Shown here piece after piece: positions 35,167 through 43,782 of a DNA stretch of 64,000 nucleotides. The notes under the pieces were generated by a model. That model ran no database searches and had not been told where the DNA came from. It was given only the letters and a program-made list of their open reading frames with translations. This DNA comes from Acidobacteriota bacterium (GTDB taxonomy: Bacteria > Acidobacteriota > Thermoanaerobaculia > Gp7-AA8), in the NCBI GenBank assembly GCA_003223645.1, contig QHVT01000006.1, positions 404,967-468,966 of the forward strand, in the 5' to 3' direction. Both the position numbers and the translations under genes were made by a program. Each line of letters starts with the position of its first letter. The first letter of the stretch is position 1.

Positions 35167-35703
35167 ATGGAGCCTGTCGTTTTGCGGCGACTTCGCGAGG
35201 ATGACGAAGCTGTCTTCGTTCGCGCGATTGCGTCGTGGCCACGCGACGAGGCGACGACATTCGCGCCGAACTTCGATCCCGCTGCCGGCGTCGGCGAATA
35301 TGTCCGGCTGCTCGATGCGCAGGCGCGAGGGGAGCGGCTGCCGGACGGCTGGGTGCCGTCGATCACGATGTTCGGCTTTGCCGGCGATGAAGTAGTCGGA
35401 CGTCTTCAGTTTCGGCGCGTTTTGAATGAGCGCCTGCTGCTGATCGGCGGCAATATCGGATATGCGGTCTTGCCGCAGTTTCGCGGCCGCGGCTACGCGA
35501 AGAGCATGCTGCGGCAAGGTCTGACGCTCGCGTGCGCCGAAGGATTGAGGCGGGTGTTGATTACGTGCGATGAAGACAACCGGGCTTCTGCTCGCATCAT
35601 CGAGAGTGTCGGCGGTAAACTCGAGAACGTTGTGAGCACGGGCGAGGCGACGCCGCGCAAGGCGCGGTACTGGGTATCGTTGGAATGCGAAGAGGGCGGG
35701 TAA
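35167..35703 (+). CDS. GNAT-family N-acetyltransferase
   Basis: 178-aa acetyltransferase. The acetyl-CoA pyrophosphate-binding motif QFRGRGYA is at 104-111 within GYAVLPQFRGRGYAKSML, and the typical C-terminal ITCDEDNRASARIIESVGG follows. The family resembles small-molecule or antibiotic GNATs; the acceptor is unknown. The downstream membrane-protein gene starts inside its last 19 bases, so the two are coupled. Confidence 0.88.
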   Translation: MEPVVLRRLREDDEAVFVRAIASWPRDEATTFAPNFDPAAGVGEYVRLLDAQARGERLPDGWVPSITMFGFAGDEVVGRLQFRRVLNERLLLIGGNIGYAVLPQFRGRGYAKSMLRQGLTLACAEGLRRVLITCDEDNRASARIIESVGGKLENVVSTGEATPRKARYWVSLECEEGG

Positions 35704-38375
35704 GCCTCCTCATCGGGCTCTGCTGCCTGCTGATCTACAACGCCAACCGTCGTGCGATCCCTGCCGGCGATACGTATCCGGCGCGCTACCTGCCGTTCGC
35801 AATCCTGCAAAATCACACCGTCCTTCTCGATCCGGTCGTGATCGTGGCAGCGCAGGGACGAGGCAATACCGCGTTCTGGATGGTGCGCCTCCCGAATGGC
35901 CACGTCATCTCGCTGTACCCCGTCACGCTGCCGGTGCTCATCGCGCCGCTCTACCTTCCGGCGGTTGGTTACCTGCACCTCCGTGGCTGGAGCGACCCGC
36001 GGCTGGACCATGTGGCGAAAGTGATGGAGAAGCTCTCCGCTTCTCTCATCGCTGCACTCTCCGCGGCGCTTCTCTATCTTCTTCTGCGAAAACGTACGAC
36101 AGGACCGGTCGCGCTGCTGCTCACGATCGCTTATGCGTTTGGTACGACAACCTGGGTGATCAGCAGTCAGGCTCTGTGGCAGCACGGAATCGCGCAGTTC
36201 CTGGTCATCGGCGCGCTGCTGCTCGTCACCGGACCATGCACTGCGCCGCGAGCACTTGCCGTCGGCTTGTTGTGCGGCCTCATCGCCGCCAACCGCCCGC
36301 CCGATGTCATCCTCGCTGCGGCTCTCGGGGCGTACGCACTTTTCTGGGCGGGCCGGCGCCGCGCTGCGCTCCTCGCCGCCGGCGCCGCGCTGCCGGCCGG
36401 CCTCGTGCTCTTCTACAACCTCGGCGTCGCCGGCAATCTCGCCGGTGGCTACGGGGTGCAAGGGAGGCCAGAGTTTTTTCATCACGACCTGCTCTCCGGG
36501 ATCGGCGGATTGCTCGTCAGTCCGACGCGCGGGCTGCTCGTCTTCTCTCCCTTTCTCGTCTTCCTCGTTCTCGCGTGGCGGCACCTGCCGCGTGATCGCC
36601 GGCAGCGGGCTCTCACGATGGCGATGATGATTGCCGTCGTATTGCAGATCCTGCTCTACGCCAAGGCGGACTGGCGCGCCGGCGTCTCCTGGGGTCCGCG
36701 TTACATGACGGACCTTCTGCCGTTCCTGATGTGGATGCTGGTCCCGGTTGTCAGCGCGCTGCGCGGCGCCGGCCGGCTGCTCTTTCTGTCGGCAGTCGGC
36801 GTCGCGATCTTGATCCAGGCGATCGGTGCCTTCTGCTACACCGGCATGACCGATTGGGTGTTCTTCACCGACAGCGGGATGCGTGCGATGTGGAACTGGC
36901 GAAACGCACCGTTTCTCGCTTCGCTGAAGCAGGGCCTCGCGCCCGCGGAGTCGCTGGCCGGGACGCGCGGCAGTCTCGACGCCATCGATGTCACGACACG
37001 GCAGGAAGCGATCGCCAGCGGATGGGCGCTCATCGGCCACGCGACGCCCGCGCGAGTCTCCCTCATCATCGACGGCCGGCAGACCGTCACCACGAAGATA
37101 TTCTTCGACCGGCCGGACGTTCGCGATGCGTTGCACGAGGCGAGTCCCGCCGGCTGGCGCATTCCGTTCAGCACCGCCGGTCTCGCTCCGGGCGATCACT
37201 ACGTGACCGCGTTCGCACGGACCAACGCCAAAGGTGAAGGACGATACCTGTACGAGCGCAGGTTCAGTCTCGAGAATCTCGAAGCCAGCTCGAGGAGCGC
37301 TGCGTCACGAATTCGAGAGCACCAGCAGGCACCGGGGTACTGGCTGACCGCCTACACGAGCGGGACGAGTTTTCATGATCCGCATCCGGAGATGAACACG
37401 TTTCTCACCGCGTTGCTCGTGGAGTTGCTCGATCCTCTCGCGAGCGCGAACGGACTCACAGACAGTCTGCAGCGCGCACGCCGGCACCTCACGAAACAGA
37501 TCGAGCCCGGCGGACTGGTGCGCTTTCATGGTCTGCCCGACGCTCCCGGCATCGGAACGCTTGGATGCGCGATCACGCCGGACACCGACGACACGACGCT
37601 CGTCTGGCGACTCGCTCCCGGCGCCGATCGCACGCAACTGACGGCGGCACTGGCGACGATCGATCGCTATCGAACACCCGAGGGGCTCTATCGCACGTGG
37701 CTCGCACCTCGTGAGGCCTACCAATGTCTCGATCCCGGCCGCGATCCGAATCCGACGGACATCGCCATTCAGATGCACCTGCTGCTGCTCTTGTCGGACG
37801 TGCGACCGGAAGCCGGACGCGCATTGTGTGAAGCGCTCCGTCCCGTCGTCGATCAGGATCGCGTGTGGGTCTACTATCGAAAGGCGCCGCTGATTCCGAT
37901 CCTGCGACTTCCCGACCTCCGCCGCGCCGGCTGCGATCTGAAGTTGCCGGAGTCGCGGATGCACACGGACGTTTCGGGGCAGCAGATCTGGGTCGATGTC
38001 GTCCGGCTGCTGCTGAGCGGCCGTGAAGAAATCCCCCGTCATCCTGAGTCGGCGAAGCGCGACGAAGGATCTCAAAATACGAAGAGCCTGCAATTTAGAG
38101 ATCCTTCGCCGTCTGCGCGGCTCAGGATGACGGGGATTTTTTCACAGCCTCTGAGCGGAACGTCAGCGCCCGACGCCGAACGCATCCACGAAATTCTGCG
38201 CGATCTCGCAGCGAACGACTTTTTCCTCTTACGAACGAGTCCCCCACTCCTCTACCATAATGATCTGACCGCGAGTGTCTCGCGGTACTACTGGTCTGAA
38301 GACGCCGGCTACGCGCTCTGGTTGAGGCTCTATCACGAATATGAATTCATCGGTTCTCCCGATTCCGGCCACTAA
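35685..38375 (+). CDS. Fusion of a GT-C-like polytopic membrane domain with an alpha-barrel (terpene-cyclase-like) domain
   Basis: 896 aa. Residues 1-400 hold about 9-10 helices with an N-terminal extracytoplasmic acidic motif (AGDTYPARYLPF) characteristic of GT-C-type transferases using polyprenyl-phosphate sugars. Residues about 400-540 form a small beta domain. Residues about 545-896 read as an alpha/alpha repeat domain like the squalene/terpene cyclase and prenyltransferase superfamily: QQAPGYWLTAYTSG, FLTALLVELLD, then DTDDTTLVWRL near 633. Residues about 782-820 are encoded by a family B hairpin. The last 35 bp overlap the UbiA gene. A transferase acting on an isoprenoid carrier is inferred. 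I know of no named family with this exact combination. Confidence 0.7.
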   Translation: MRRGRVSLLIGLCCLLIYNANRRAIPAGDTYPARYLPFAILQNHTVLLDPVVIVAAQGRGNTAFWMVRLPNGHVISLYPVTLPVLIAPLYLPAVGYLHLRGWSDPRLDHVAKVMEKLSASLIAALSAALLYLLLRKRTTGPVALLLTIAYAFGTTTWVISSQALWQHGIAQFLVIGALLLVTGPCTAPRALAVGLLCGLIAANRPPDVILAAALGAYALFWAGRRRAALLAAGAALPAGLVLFYNLGVAGNLAGGYGVQGRPEFFHHDLLSGIGGLLVSPTRGLLVFSPFLVFLVLAWRHLPRDRRQRALTMAMMIAVVLQILLYAKADWRAGVSWGPRYMTDLLPFLMWMLVPVVSALRGAGRLLFLSAVGVAILIQAIGAFCYTGMTDWVFFTDSGMRAMWNWRNAPFLASLKQGLAPAESLAGTRGSLDAIDVTTRQEAIASGWALIGHATPARVSLIIDGRQTVTTKIFFDRPDVRDALHEASPAGWRIPFSTAGLAPGDHYVTAFARTNAKGEGRYLYERRFSLENLEASSRSAASRIREHQQAPGYWLTAYTSGTSFHDPHPEMNTFLTALLVELLDPLASANGLTDSLQRARRHLTKQIEPGGLVRFHGLPDAPGIGTLGCAITPDTDDTTLVWRLAPGADRTQLTAALATIDRYRTPEGLYRTWLAPREAYQCLDPGRDPNPTDIAIQMHLLLLLSDVRPEAGRALCEALRPVVDQDRVWVYYRKAPLIPILRLPDLRRAGCDLKLPESRMHTDVSGQQIWVDVVRLLLSGREEIPRHPESAKRDEGSQNTKSLQFRDPSPSARLRMTGIFSQPLSGTSAPDAERIHEILRDLAANDFFLLRTSPPLLYHNDLTASVSRYYWSEDAGYALWLRLYHEYEFIGSPDSGH
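38029..38142. repeat. Family B hairpin inside the coding sequence of the GT-C/cyclase-like fusion
   Basis: The left arm starts GAAGAAATCCCCC then GTCATCCTGAGTCGGCGAAG. The right arm ends GGCTCAGGATGACGGGG then ATTTTTTC. The arms pair over more than 35 bp with few mismatches around an AT-rich 25-nt loop. It reads through in frame as HPESAKRDEGS ... RDPSPSARLRMTG, and recognisable domain sequence resumes downstream (YYWSEDAGYALWLRLYHEYE). A sister copy is at 61744-61827. Confidence 0.9.
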
Positions 38376-39241: not shown

Positions 39242-40294
39242 CTACCCGAGGCGCTTCAAGATCGCCTCGCCCGCCGCTCGCGTTCCGAGCGAGCCGCCGA
39301 GGTCTTTCGTGGTCTCGTGGTCGAGAATCGCGGATGTCACGGCGCGCTCGATGAGAGAGCACTCTTCATAGAAGCCGAGGTATTCGAGCATCATCGCGGC
39401 GGTGAGGATCGCGCCGATCGGGTTCGCGGTGTCTTTGCCGGCGTATTTTGGGGCGCTGCCGTGAATGGGCTCGAAGAGCGAGACGCGGCCGGGATGGATG
39501 TTGCCGGACGCGGCGACGCCGAGGCCGCCCTGCAGCGCGGCGCCGAGGTCGGTGACGATGTCGCCGAACATGTTGTTCGTCACGATCACGTCGAACATCT
39601 CCGGCGCGCGCACCATCTGCATCGTCAGCGCGTCGACGAACATGTGGAAGTGCTCGATGCCGGGATACTCCCTCCCCACTTCCTCGAACGTCCGCACCCA
39701 GAGGTCGCCGCCGAAGCGCATGACGTTGCTCTTGTCGGACATGCAGACGGACTTGCGTCCGGTCCTCTTCGCGTACTCGAATGCGTAGCGGATGATCCGC
39801 TCGACGCCTTTGCGCGTCGACACGTCTTCCTGCACCGCCACTTCTTCGGCCGTCCCTTTCTTGAACGCTCCACCCATCCCCACGTACGCGCCCTCGGTGT
39901 TCTCGCGGAAGATGACGAAGTCGATTTCGGCAACACCTTTCCCTTTCAGCGGACACAGACGCTCGTCGAGCAGTTTCACCGGCCGATAGTTGACGTAGAG
40001 GTCGAGCTGGAAACGCATGCCGAGGAGGATGTCGGCGGCGTGCTTCATGTCGGGAACGCGCGGGTCGCCGAATGCGCCGAGATAGACCGCGGCGTAGTGA
40101 TCGCGGATGTCTTCCATCGCGCCGGGCGGCATGGAGACGCCGGTGCGCAGATATTCGTCGGCGCTCCAGGTGAAGTGCGTGAACTCCAGCCCGAGGCGGT
40201 GCTCGTCATTCACGCGCTCGAGGACGCGCATACCTGCGTCGATCACTTCCGGTCCGATCCCGTCGCCGGGGATCACGGCGATTCTTTTCGTCAT
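39242..40294 (-). CDS. Isocitrate/isopropylmalate dehydrogenase family protein
   Basis: 350-aa NAD(P)-dependent beta-decarboxylating dehydrogenase: IAVIPGDGIGPEVIDAG at 4-20, FRENTEGAYVG (about 125-135), catalytic Lys/Asp region SDKSNVMRFGG, and NMFGDIVTDLGAALQGGLG...NIHPG. RENTEG is more usual in isocitrate or tartrate-type enzymes than in LeuB (RELTGG), so leuB is not assigned; no leuC or leuD is nearby. The ATG at 40294 overlaps the stop of the ChbG-like gene (ATGA), placing it last in a four-gene minus-strand operon. Its link with glycan genes is unexplained. Confidence 0.85.
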   Translation of the reverse strand: MTKRIAVIPGDGIGPEVIDAGMRVLERVNDEHRLGLEFTHFTWSADEYLRTGVSMPPGAMEDIRDHYAAVYLGAFGDPRVPDMKHAADILLGMRFQLDLYVNYRPVKLLDERLCPLKGKGVAEIDFVIFRENTEGAYVGMGGAFKKGTAEEVAVQEDVSTRKGVERIIRYAFEYAKRTGRKSVCMSDKSNVMRFGGDLWVRTFEEVGREYPGIEHFHMFVDALTMQMVRAPEMFDVIVTNNMFGDIVTDLGAALQGGLGVAASGNIHPGRVSLFEPIHGSAPKYAGKDTANPIGAILTAAMMLEYLGFYEECSLIERAVTSAILDHETTKDLGGSLGTRAAGEAILKRLG

Positions 40295-41085
40295 TGACCC
40301 GAACGTATCACGGAAGGCGCAACCAACTCGATGCCCCGCTTCGCCAGCTCGCCGCGCAGACGCGGATCGCATAACGCGCGCGTTTCGTCGTCCCAATCGT
40401 AGTCCCAGTGATCGTAGCCGCGCACGGCGACGCCGGGATGCGTAACCAGCTCCGTCACGCCCTCGGTGACGCGATCGAACAGCGCGATGACATCGCGCAG
40501 ACGGCCGGCCTCGGCGACGCCGATCGTGCGATCGTTGTGGAGCGGCGGCCGCCCTCGGCCGCCGGCTCTTGCGCGACGTCCGAGGAAGCTGAGGGCGCTC
40601 ATGGCGACGCGGCGGGCGGGAGTGGTGCGCGCCTCCGGCGTGCCCCCGCCCAAAGGCGCGCCGGAGGCGCGCACCACTCCCGCTCCTTCGTTCACGATGC
40701 GCACGTAGTCGATCAGATACTCGCTCGCGAGCTTCTTCACGACTTCGAAAATACGCGGCAGGACGTGGAGATGCTGATGTCCGTTGAGGTGCGTGACCCT
40801 GAGTCCGGTCGCCAGAACCTTCTCGATTTGCGCGCGCAGCTCGCGCTCGATCGCGCCGATCGAGATCACGCGCGCGAGGTAGAGCGGAACGAACGATGTG
40901 TATTTGCGCGGGAAGCGAATGCACGTCAGCGGCTTCTCTTCGACGAGCGTGAGATGCACGCCGGCTTCGAGCGAGGGGACGCCGCGCAGTTTTTCGATCG
41001 CGTCGTCAAAGGCCGCGCCGTTCGCGACGATGCTGCACGCGGTGACGATGCCGTCGCGATGCGCGCGGATCGCGCCGTCGGTCAT
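40291..41085 (-). CDS. ChbG/YdjC-like carbohydrate deacetylase; true start probably ATC at 41136
   Basis: 264 aa from the first ATG (41085), but the conserved N-terminus lies upstream in frame. 41136-41086 encodes IKRLLIVTADDVGLHRG, which aligns with MERLLIVNADDFGLS of E. coli ChbG (from memory). TADD holds a metal ligand/catalytic Asp, so a protein starting at 41085 should be dead. No ATG, GTG or TTG exists between the upstream in-frame TAA (41146-41148) and 41085; the aligned initiator is ATC (41136), 4 nt after the stop of the upstream glycosyltransferase. Other zinc ligands are His in AGVHLTL (about 44) and NGHQHLH (about 103). Two hairpin repeats (40537-40570, 40619-40682) are in frame within it. 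It probably removes N-acetyl groups from a lipid-linked or soluble aminosugar. Confidence 0.8.
   Translation of the reverse strand: MTDGAIRAHRDGIVTACSIVANGAAFDDAIEKLRGVPSLEAGVHLTLVEEKPLTCIRFPRKYTSFVPLYLARVISIGAIERELRAQIEKVLATGLRVTHLNGHQHLHVLPRIFEVVKKLASEYLIDYVRIVNEGAGVVRASGAPLGGGTPEARTTPARRVAMSALSFLGRRARAGGRGRPPLHNDRTIGVAEAGRLRDVIALFDRVTEGVTELVTHPGVAVRGYDHWDYDWDDETRALCDPRLRGELAKRGIELVAPSVIRSGQ
40537..40570. repeat. Family A half element inside the ChbG-like gene
   Basis: GTGGAGCGGCGGCCGC / cctcGGCCGCCGG is the left hairpin of family A. It is translated on the minus strand as part of RARAGGRGRPPLHN. The frame is kept and the conserved ChbG C-terminus (GVTELVTHPG) resumes after it. Confidence 0.85.
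40619..40682. repeat. Family C hairpin inside the ChbG-like gene
   Basis: Arms AGTGGTGCGCGCCTCCGGCG and GCCGGAGGCGCGCACCACT pair over about 20 bp around a Pro/Gly-coding loop. It is translated in frame as GVVRASGAP...TPEARTTP. The same element with the same frame is at 43266-43323. Confidence 0.9.
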
Positions 41086-41140
41086 CCCGCGATGCAGGCC
41101 GACGTCATCCGCTGTGACTATCAGCAGGCGTTTGATTTTT

Positions 41141-41941
41141 CTAGTTTATCCCGCGCGAAGACGCGGGATCTCTGGTTACATGATCGTTGATGGTTTCATT
41201 GGTCGCGGGATCAACTGCGAGGTTCTGCCGCCTGCGCATCTCCGGATAGAGCTTCACCAGCTCGCGCAGGATTTTGAAGATCACCGACGGCGATGACAAA
41301 TTCGACGTGCCGCGGATGCGCGGGAAGTAGTCGATGCCGATCTGCTGGATGGCGAAGCCGCGGTTCTTCGCTTTCACGATCAGCTCCGCGTCGATGAGCG
41401 ATCCTTCGGACTTGAGCTCGATCTTCTGCAGCACTCTGCGCTTGAAGAGCTTGAACGAGAAGTTGATGTCGCGGTGCGGCCAGCCGAACAGCACGCCGAT
41501 GAGCGTGTTGTAGACGTACGAGTAGATCGTGCGCCGCAGCCCTTCCATCGTGCGGTCGTGACGGTAACCGGCGATCAGGTCGGCGCCGGTTACGTGCATC
41601 GCGCGGATCGCGCGGCCGAGGACGTCGGGATCGAACGGCAGGTCGGCGTCCATGTAGAGCACGAGATCTTTCGTCGCGGCGGCGAATCCCGTGCGGATCG
41701 TGCCGCCGAGCTTGCGGTTCTTCTCGTGGCGCAGCACGCGGATGCGCGGGTTCTCTTCGGCCATCCGCGCGGCCATCGCCGGCGAGTCGTCGGTCGACGC
41801 GTCGTCGACGATGATGAGCTCGTAGTCGTCCGAGTATTTCGTCAACGCTTCGACCGCCGCCGAGACGGCGTGCTCGATGTTCAACTCCTCGTTGAACATC
41901 GGAATGACGAGCGAGACGGACGGCCGGGCCACGACAGGCAT
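41141..41941 (-). CDS. Family 2 glycosyltransferase (dolichyl/polyprenyl-phosphate mannose synthase-like)
   Basis: 266-aa GT2 of the DPM1/ArnC/GtrB type: SLVIPMFNEELNIE at 10-23, IIVDDASTDDS at 43-53, LYMDADLPFDPD at 95-106. Then INFSFKLFKRRVL and IDYFPRIRGTSNLS, which are hallmarks of the polyprenyl-phosphate glycosyltransferase branch. No C-terminal membrane helices are present, as in DPM1-type enzymes. It probably loads a hexose onto a polyprenyl phosphate, which GT-C enzymes such as the upstream gene would then use as donor. No clear Shine-Dalgarno; its stop lies 4 nt before the ATC proposed as the ChbG start. Confidence 0.9.
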   Translation of the reverse strand: MPVVARPSVSLVIPMFNEELNIEHAVSAAVEALTKYSDDYELIIVDDASTDDSPAMAARMAEENPRIRVLRHEKNRKLGGTIRTGFAAATKDLVLYMDADLPFDPDVLGRAIRAMHVTGADLIAGYRHDRTMEGLRRTIYSYVYNTLIGVLFGWPHRDINFSFKLFKRRVLQKIELKSEGSLIDAELIVKAKNRGFAIQQIGIDYFPRIRGTSNLSSPSVIFKILRELVKLYPEMRRRQNLAVDPATNETINDHVTRDPASSRGIN

Positions 41942-41970: not shown

Positions 41971-43782
41971 TCAGCGTTGTTCGAACAGCGTCAGTTGTAC
42001 GGCCAGCCGGCGCCGGTCCTGGTTGTGAAGCACGTCGTCCGGCCGGAAGGAGCGCGCCGAACGGATCGTGATTTCTTTTCCGAACGGCACGATCGCCCAG
42101 ACCGGTTTCTTCGGCACGTTCACTTGCGCGGCCCGCTGCCCGTCGACGAGCACTTCTACCGCATTGCTCTCGTACGGTGCATCGATCGAAAGACTGAATT
42201 GCAACGCGACCGTTTTCCGGCCGAGCTGCGGCAGGCGGATCGTCGCCTCCGGTCCGAGCCACCGCCACTCCCCTTCGTTCGCCGTCGCCTCGAGGTGATG
42301 CACGCCGAACACTTCGAGGAAGCGCTCTTCGGGCCGCAGCGGGTCGACGCTGACGCGCAGTCCGAAGTTGCGCGTCATTTTCACGTAGGCGTTGCTCTCG
42401 TGCCACGCGAACACGCGCGCGTCGCGATCGACCGAGCCGCCGTCGAGGATGATCACCGCGGGCGTTGCGGGCTGGTCGTAGAGATCGAGCATCGCGCGCT
42501 CGAGAAATCGCGAGCGATAGAGCGGCAGCAGCCATTCCACGTGCGAGCGCGTGCCGGCCTGATACAGCACGACCGTGTTGCGCGGCACGCTCGCGTTCAC
42601 GTAGCGCGCGGCGGCGACGATCGGCGACGGAGTCGTCACGCGATCGATGACGATCGGACTCACGTACCACGCGGACAGTCCCACGATGACCGCCGTTCCG
42701 ATCCACCACGGAATGCGCACGAAGCGAAGTCCGAGTGCGGCGAGGAGGGCGAAGAGCGGAAGCGCGGGGAGCGAGTAGCGGACGGCGTCCGCGGGATCCA
42801 TCGCCGCGATGGCGAAGCCGAGGTGCTCGAACGTGAAGACGACGAAGGGGATGATCGAGCGGCGCCAGCCGCGGAGAAACGGGATCACGCCGATCGCCGC
42901 GAAGAGACCGATCAATGCGATCGTGATCGACGAGCCCCACGCGCGGAGCACGAATCGCGCGGCGATGCGCAGGAGCGTCTTCGATCCGCGTGAAGCGGCG
43001 GCGTCGTGCGCAGCGAAATAGCGCGCCTGCCCGAGCTCGTAATTCGTGAATCCCTTCCACCCGCCCGTCGCCTGAATCAACGGCACGAGCCAGATCAGCG
43101 ATGCGACGGTGAAGACGGCGATCGCAATCGCGCGCTGCTTCCACGTACGAAAGCAGAGGAACAGCGCGACGATGAGCGCGGGCACGAGCGGAATCGCGAG
43201 CTGTGGACGGCAGCCGATCGACGCCGACGCGAAGAGAGCCGATGCAACCGCCGGCGTCAGAGCCGGAGTGGTGCGCGCCTCCGGCGCGCCTTCGGTGGGC
43301 GCGCCGGAGGCGCGCACCACTCCCGGCTGACTGAGAGAATGAAACGTCAGCGCGAGGAACATGAGCGCCGTCGCGTCCGCGAGCGCGAGCGTCGCATGGA
43401 TCAGCATCCCCGCCGACAGATAGAAAATGAGAGAGCCGGCCAGCGCGACGTCGGCGTCGTCGACGTAGTTTCGGAAGGCGCGATAGAGTGCGGCGAAGCC
43501 GACGACGCAGGCGACGATGTTCAGCGCGACGAGCGCGGCAAAGGGATTGGGAATGAGCAAATTGGCGAACTTGCCAAGAGCCACGAAGAGCGGGTAGCCG
43601 GGCGGATGCGGGTGGTGGCGGAGCGGCTCGAACCTGGAAAGGGCCTCGAGAAAATGAAACTCATCGAGCTCCCACGGCGTGCGTGGGAACGTCAAGAGAC
43701 GCGAGACGAGCACGACAGCCGCGCCCGCGTACAGCCGCCAGTCGGGTCTTCGAGATTGGACGATGGGATTGCTCCGTAACAC
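41971..43782 (-). CDS. GT-C-type membrane glycosyltransferase
   Basis: 603 aa, with about 10 helices in the first 390 residues and a soluble C-terminal beta domain (about 400-603) probably in the periplasm. The first loop has the acidic DE motif (PWELDEFHFLEALSRFEP) followed by HHPHPPGYPLF, characteristic of GT39/PMT-like and ArnT-like enzymes that use polyprenyl-phosphate sugars. Residues about 154-173 (GVVRASGAPTEGAPEARTTP) are a family C repeat lying in a loop between helices. GTG 43782 is the longest start and overlaps the divergent methyltransferase start by 20 bp. It is first in the operon with the DPM1-like GT2, its likely donor supplier. Confidence 0.82.
   Translation of the reverse strand: MLRSNPIVQSRRPDWRLYAGAAVVLVSRLLTFPRTPWELDEFHFLEALSRFEPLRHHPHPPGYPLFVALGKFANLLIPNPFAALVALNIVACVVGFAALYRAFRNYVDDADVALAGSLIFYLSAGMLIHATLALADATALMFLALTFHSLSQPGVVRASGAPTEGAPEARTTPALTPAVASALFASASIGCRPQLAIPLVPALIVALFLCFRTWKQRAIAIAVFTVASLIWLVPLIQATGGWKGFTNYELGQARYFAAHDAAASRGSKTLLRIAARFVLRAWGSSITIALIGLFAAIGVIPFLRGWRRSIIPFVVFTFEHLGFAIAAMDPADAVRYSLPALPLFALLAALGLRFVRIPWWIGTAVIVGLSAWYVSPIVIDRVTTPSPIVAAARYVNASVPRNTVVLYQAGTRSHVEWLLPLYRSRFLERAMLDLYDQPATPAVIILDGGSVDRDARVFAWHESNAYVKMTRNFGLRVSVDPLRPEERFLEVFGVHHLEATANEGEWRWLGPEATIRLPQLGRKTVALQFSLSIDAPYESNAVEVLVDGQRAAQVNVPKKPVWAIVPFGKEITIRSARSFRPDDVLHNQDRRRLAVQLTLFEQR
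43266..43323. repeat. Family C hairpin inside the GT-C gene
   Basis: GAGTGGTGCGCGCCTCCGGC and its complement GCCGGAGGCGCGCACCACTC form a perfect stem of about 25 bp including GCGCC, around a TTCGGT-type loop. Translated in frame on the minus strand as GVVRASGAP...EARTTP, between two predicted membrane helices. Confidence 0.93.

Follow-up and report, generated by a model that had tools for sequence, protein, structure and literature searches.

REP and REPIN elements are short GC-rich palindromes that occur in many copies, often as inverted pairs and often at gene borders, and a GTAG-type tetranucleotide at the hairpin base is one of their defining features. Rickettsia palindromic elements (RPE) are palindromic insertions that lie in frame in protein-coding genes. 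Near-cognate initiation of the AUU type is known from infC. At short gene overlaps, termination of one gene followed by reinitiation on the next has been described (PMC10666635, PMC12548453).

All of these bear on a junction in the genome of an Acidobacteriota bacterium, studied here in a window of 64,000 nucleotides (the whole stretch of DNA that was analysed; contig QHVT01000006.1). A REP-like palindromic dimer, REP-A, occupies the junction between a GT2 glycosyltransferase gene and chbG, a gene for a deacetylase of the YdjC/ChbG/HpnK family (PF04794); the GT2 frame continues across the element as far as a TAG at its border. The deacetylase resembles known members of its family in its full-length profile match and its TADD, GVHL and HLNGHQHLH motifs, but it falls below both NCBIfam cut-offs, has no canonical start and carries two internal mobile-element insertions. 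REP-A shares the short GC-rich palindrome, inverted pairs, copy number and gene-border location of REP/REPIN elements, whereas the single PF01797 gene detected in the genome adjoins a different family, REP-C, and at least one REP-A copy lies within coding sequence (leuS). Like RPE, palindromes are found in frame inside genes, here chbG and leuS, but phylum and sequence differ, and both the start and the stop of a coupled junction also appear to have been removed. As in the termination-reinitiation systems of those papers, the stop and putative start are a few nucleotides apart, and most relatives with a glycosyltransferase upstream have an NTGA overlap; here, however, the putative start is ATC and the overlap would have been destroyed. 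This ATC, like the infC start, is a near-cognate of the AUN group, but the aggagg-like sequence upstream of infC is missing from the window chbG.

A deacetylase gene without a canonical start

The gene order on the minus strand is GT2 glycosyltransferase (PF00535), YdjC-family deacetylase and isopropylmalate/isocitrate dehydrogenase-like gene. The features discussed below are:

41141–41941, minus strand: GT2 glycosyltransferase, encoded upstream of chbG; the C-terminal 24 residues (VDPATNETINDHVTRDPASSRGIN) come from the element, and the TAG is at 41143–41141
41143–41216, no strand assigned: REP-A, a REP-like palindromic dimer of 74 bp, with an intact hairpin at 41148–41169 and a degenerate second end
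41136–41142, no strand assigned: T-rich edge of REP-A, TTTTTCT on the plus strand; on the sense strand this gives the run of A that immediately precedes ATC
41134–41136, minus strand: ATC, the best candidate initiation codon
41125–41127, minus strand: first CTG, an alternative near-cognate start, 13 nt past the GT2 stop
40291–41136, minus strand: chbG/YdjC-family deacetylase frame as read from ATC, 281 codons plus a stop that overlaps the ATG of the next gene
40616–40683, no strand assigned: REP-B, a second palindromic family, in frame within chbG (VVRASGAP...TPEARTTP)
40535–40566 (approximate limits), no strand assigned: REP-C, a third palindromic family, in frame within chbG (GGRGRPPLH)
39242–40294, minus strand: isopropylmalate/isocitrate dehydrogenase-like gene, identified by profile matches, whose start overlaps the chbG stop

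Read from ATC, chbG begins ATC AAA CGC CTG CTG ATA GTC ACA GCG GAT GAC (IKRLLIVTADD). Its frame contains a TAA four codons upstream of ATC and is open thereafter. The first-pass annotation had held that no canonical start precedes TADD, and this is correct: there is no ATG, GTG or TTG in the open frame from TAA to TADD, and the first ATG (41085) lies downstream of the motif. The near-cognates ahead of TADD are ATC, CTG (41127), CTG (41124) and ATA (41121). The ATC (41136–41134) does follow the GT2 TAG by 4 nt, as had also been claimed.

The protein belongs to the YdjC family by its full-length match to PF04794 (E 5e-49; 168 bits against a gathering score of 29.7; profile positions 2–265 of 266). 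TADD, GVHL and HLNGHQHLH, which we take to be the metal-binding Asp and His motifs of this family, are all found. Relatives vary in them: G002 has GAHL, G003 has LNSHQHLH and G007 is without the third motif. The protein scores below the cut-offs of both the ChbG equivalog NF002559 (chitin disaccharide deacetylase; 107.2 vs 227 bits) and HpnK TIGR03473 (145.2 vs 232.6 bits). With phmmer, its residue 2 aligns with residue 2 of 7vi8 chain A ('Chitooligosaccharide deacetylase'), presumably E. coli ChbG, and the alignment runs ungapped to TADD/NADD, so that ATC sits at Met1 of that solved enzyme. The proposed alignment of ATC with the deacetylase Met therefore holds against this chain, but is less clear-cut against the nearest relatives, as those with a canonical start have it one codon nearer to TADD.

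The junction in relatives

The window genome (G000; 6.38 Mb, 51 contigs) was compared within a family set of 18 genomes that includes it, 16 of which were matched by a 150-residue chbG query. Distant paralogues with 30–38% identity (L031, L048–L052) were excluded from the family counts, which removes G015, and the orthologue set comprises 14 loci besides the window. A canonical start (ATG, GTG or TTG) lies exactly 6 codons before TADD in 12 of these 14, the exceptions being G014 and G005. Comparing this codon in relatives had been suggested in the first-pass annotation, and the outcome is mixed for its reading: the window has AAA at the shared position and ATC 7 codons ahead of TADD. Among the 12 canonical starts, 8 are followed by AAA or AAG as codon 2. 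Over the 15 nt before TADD, the window agrees better with 12 of 14 relatives when it is assumed to have gained one CTG, which places ATC at the start position, a fit that is allowed one free insertion; the ungapped fit, which puts AAA there, is better in same-genus G001 (13 vs 10) and in G007 (10 vs 8). Without such a gain of CTG, the family start would fall on the codon that follows ATC.

A glycosyltransferase lies upstream of chbG in 13 relatives, while G002 has no such match. Stop and start overlap as NTGA in 8 of the 13 and over a longer stretch in two (G001, G011); a gap separates the genes in three (G014, G005 and, as read by eye, G007). In many relatives the open chbG frame extends a long way upstream, which raised the suspicion of an ancestral GT2-ChbG fusion; this was rejected because GT2 ends at the NTGA overlap in a different frame.

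Judging by these relatives, we infer that the pair once overlapped and that REP-A took the place of its stop as well as its start. At one end the window copy carries the consensus AGTTTATCCCGCG and at the other a similar sequence in inverted orientation, here degenerate (AGTTGATCCCGCG, minus strand 41204–41216), and it supplies the first base of the GT2 stop. When the sense RNA was folded alone, the hairpin was kept just upstream of ATC; at a z of -1.85, with 9 of 200 shuffles equally stable, the fold is not remarkable as a whole. If REP-A took the normal start away, chbG must either be initiated at an unusual codon, most plausibly ATC, or produce next to no protein. Of the earlier suggestion of reinitiation or a recent ATG-to-ATC change, the first part is well suited by the short distance from stop to ATC. 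A single substitution as the whole story is weakened by the presence of REP-A, which probably rewrote the junction, and by the family start position.

REP-A and other palindromes across the genome

The REP-A core pattern, ATCCCGCG and CGCGGGAT separated by at most 10 nt, matches exactly at 94 places in the window genome, at one in same-genus G001 and at no more than one in any of the remaining 16 family genomes. Among the matches listed, these places are mostly paired, about 70–190 bp apart. As a short palindrome with many dispersed copies, often in inverted pairs, REP-A fits the general description of REP/REPIN elements, but its consensus end, (C)AGTTTATCCCGCG in 71 copies from 40 loci, has no GTAG-type tetranucleotide at the hairpin base. 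A T-rich edge outside this end is common, with TTTT in 22 of 71 copies compared with 4 of 71 in a control stretch; the window copy has TTTTT.

Borders were surveyed with a script that found the core in 39 of 40 loci, and the flanks were scored by an ad hoc codon model built from seven ORFs of the window. By these rough counts, REP-A is frequently located at gene borders: of 70 intact outer flanks, 38 point to a gene start and 29 to a gene end, and 3 are weak. The first canonical start is within 30 nt in 29 of the 38 start-facing flanks, beyond 50 nt in 4 and absent in 1. Two of these outliers, at lnt and in leuS, were examined more closely. One copy appears to have displaced the start of lnt (apolipoprotein N-acyltransferase; L144:1293-2771, G000:C19; TIGR00546, 293.4 vs 132.9 bits), where the domain starts directly at a REP-A dimer and a GTG within the element is the sole canonical in-frame start further upstream. 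In leuS (L180:229-2739, G000:C10; TIGR00396, 1018.7 vs 548.4 bits), a dimer is inserted in frame, and about 34 residues are without counterpart in the best-matching solved LeuRS. As leuS is normally essential, this suggests that such insertions are tolerated even in genes of this kind.

The two palindromes inside chbG belong to other families. REP-B (GTGGTGCGCGCCTCCGGCGNGCC) has 57+53 pattern matches (110) in the window genome and none in the 17 other family genomes, and REP-C has 227+236 (463), with 37+47 in G006, one in G014 and none in the other 15. A second REP-B copy in the window (43262–43325) lies in frame inside an ORF for a 603-aa membrane protein. Another window ORF, for a large membrane protein (35685–38375), contains a stretch like RHPESAKRDEGSQ...RDPSPSARLRMT, possibly a further in-frame repeat. 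The single PF01797 (RAYT-like) match in the window genome (G000:C4:53122-53433) is flanked by several REP-C copies, and no REP-A was found in the 2.6 kb around it (L125, G000:C4:52000-54600).

A comparable junction is found in G014, where the space between glycosyltransferase and chbG is filled by a different repeated palindrome, of the CACAGAGACACAGAG type. This stretch has at least 67, 73 and 74 matches in three genomes of its genus, with the strands of the palindrome counted apart and 40 first-look candidates scored per genome. G014 has no canonical start between the stop of the frame and TADD, while G005 has a GTG 12 codons before TADD; their start-position codons are TCC and CCG. Between the two, chbG shows dN 0.19 and dS 1.12, which indicates constraint in this genus, though G005 may use its GTG.

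Reinitiation as a possible route to expression

Our preferred reading, held tentatively and at somewhat less than even confidence, is that an ancestral overlap was lost by REP-A insertion and that chbG is still made, at a reduced rate, by reinitiation 4 nt past the GT2 TAG on ATC. In the ancestor, the GT2 stop and chbG start would have overlapped, and the insertion would have destroyed this overlap and left GT2 to end on the element edge. Ribosomes translating GT2 would unwind the REP-A hairpin, terminate at TAG and reinitiate on the nearby near-cognate ATC, giving weak chbG translation; the CTG 13 nt from the stop would be the second choice.

Published measurements bear on this in both directions. 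In PMC10666635, a 2-nt gap cost E. coli gene pairs 5, 20 and 70% of reinitiation, and a +14 nt stop-start distance is said to cost 40–80%. Coupling in that account drops steeply with distance yet survives at a few nucleotides, which would allow ribosomes that terminate at the TAG to restart on ATC. The same paper cites a value of about 0.3% of ATG for initiation on ATT. In PMC10303841, a B. subtilis fusion whose start had been mutated to AUC is described as having 'much lower' expression. Such weak initiation counts against the use of ATC, as do the lack of an evident Shine-Dalgarno sequence in the 25 nt upstream of it and its place one codon off the family start (unless a CTG was gained).

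Non-AUG starts in related bacteria provide analogies. In three hpnK-like loci (L027, L030 and L037, from G032, G044 and G029) the start position is occupied by a CTG that forms part of a CTGA overlap with the preceding gene, and coupled non-AUG starts thus seem to be tolerated in this class. Two of them exceed the HpnK cut-off of 232.6 bits (G032 265.7, G044 263.2); the G029 locus is cut by a contig end and has an in-frame GTG 31 codons further upstream. Across the class, hpnK was found in 5 of 118 genomes at E 1e-30 or better. The infC start position is ATT in all 16 of 18 loci where the motif was found, including the window genome (L109, G000:C21), and three of the 16, not the window genome, also have TTG or GTG further upstream in frame. 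In the window genome, the ATT follows an aggagg-like sequence and is the sole near-cognate candidate of the AUN group, and infC appears to begin with it. By analogy, the hpnK-like CTG and infC ATT make near-cognate reinitiation on chbG plausible.

Is chbG still in use?

The window chbG is otherwise intact, without strong signs of decay. It keeps its full length of 281 codons, with two in-frame insertions (REP-B and REP-C) and no internal stop. Of 78 columns without variation in ten relatives, 3 are altered in the window; for the ten themselves the figure is 1 to 8. Compared with G001, dN is 0.20 and dS 0.68, values that cover the whole branch since G001 and not only the time after the insertion. 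Relative-rate counts (window to G001) with six outgroups are 20:20, 21:13, 24:11, 26:17, 16:14 and 13:16, at most a modest acceleration. No second chbG copy was found in the window genome, where the 36 other matches all cover the REP-B-encoded stretch. A strongly conserved His is replaced by Arg (EAGHL to EAGRL), a change that could be harmful and is counted against chbG remaining in use.

This same evidence bears on whether the insertion silenced chbG, leaving a young start-less allele with little or no protein and decay only just begun. We regard this as unlikely, though it deserves real weight. The missing canonical start, the weakness of near-cognates in PMC10666635 and PMC10303841, the EAGRL change and the two internal insertions would all fit, and the gene may be dispensable, as the query was unmatched in 2 of 18 family genomes. 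However, the frame is full length, the changes at otherwise invariant columns are mid-range for the family, acceleration is modest at most and no other copy was found in the genome. A base-call or assembly error at 41134 hiding a canonical codon seems improbable. ATC is one base from ATG and stands immediately before AAA CGC CTG, in keeping with the AAA or AAG at codon 2 of many relatives, but REP-A insertion already accounts for the loss of the start, the family starts one codon further in, and G014 (TCC) and G005 (CCG) also have no canonical start at that place.

Reinitiation could also use CTG (41127 or 41124) or ATA (41121) in place of ATC, with a protein 2–4 residues shorter than the family, and the three hpnK-like loci show CTG at the start position. 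Their CTGs overlap the upstream stop, though, while the first CTG in the window is 13 nt downstream, where reinitiation drops according to PMC10666635, and we consider such a start quite improbable. Least credible, and very improbable indeed, is a GT2-ChbG fusion that would arise from a +1 frameshift at AAC-TAG. In its favour, chbG is read in the +1 frame with respect to GT2, and this frame opens shortly before the TAG; nevertheless, its own TAA a few nucleotides before TAG means that only AAC-TAG could serve, no slippery codon was recognised there, and the genes are separate ORFs in all 13 relatives with a glycosyltransferase upstream.

Implications

Reinitiation on ATC remains our preferred reading for the window. 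A broader proposition is possible but on the doubtful side: that the start codon is expendable at a coupled junction, with mobile palindromes having removed it separately in two lineages or more (the window's and, by an unrelated repeat, that of G014) and chbG being kept in use by reinitiation on whichever near-cognate is closest to the new stop (ATC in the window). What is new is not so much the ATC as the rewriting of a translationally coupled junction by a mobile palindrome, and in our literature search no paper describing the loss of a bacterial start codon to such an element stood out. In practice, gene callers limited to ATG, GTG and TTG starts would begin chbG past its catalytic motif. 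If reinitiation on ATC is true, a gene can be cushioned by translational coupling when its start codon is lost, and REP-like elements do more than fill intergenic gaps, as they can reshape gene borders and provide new C-termini and new starts.
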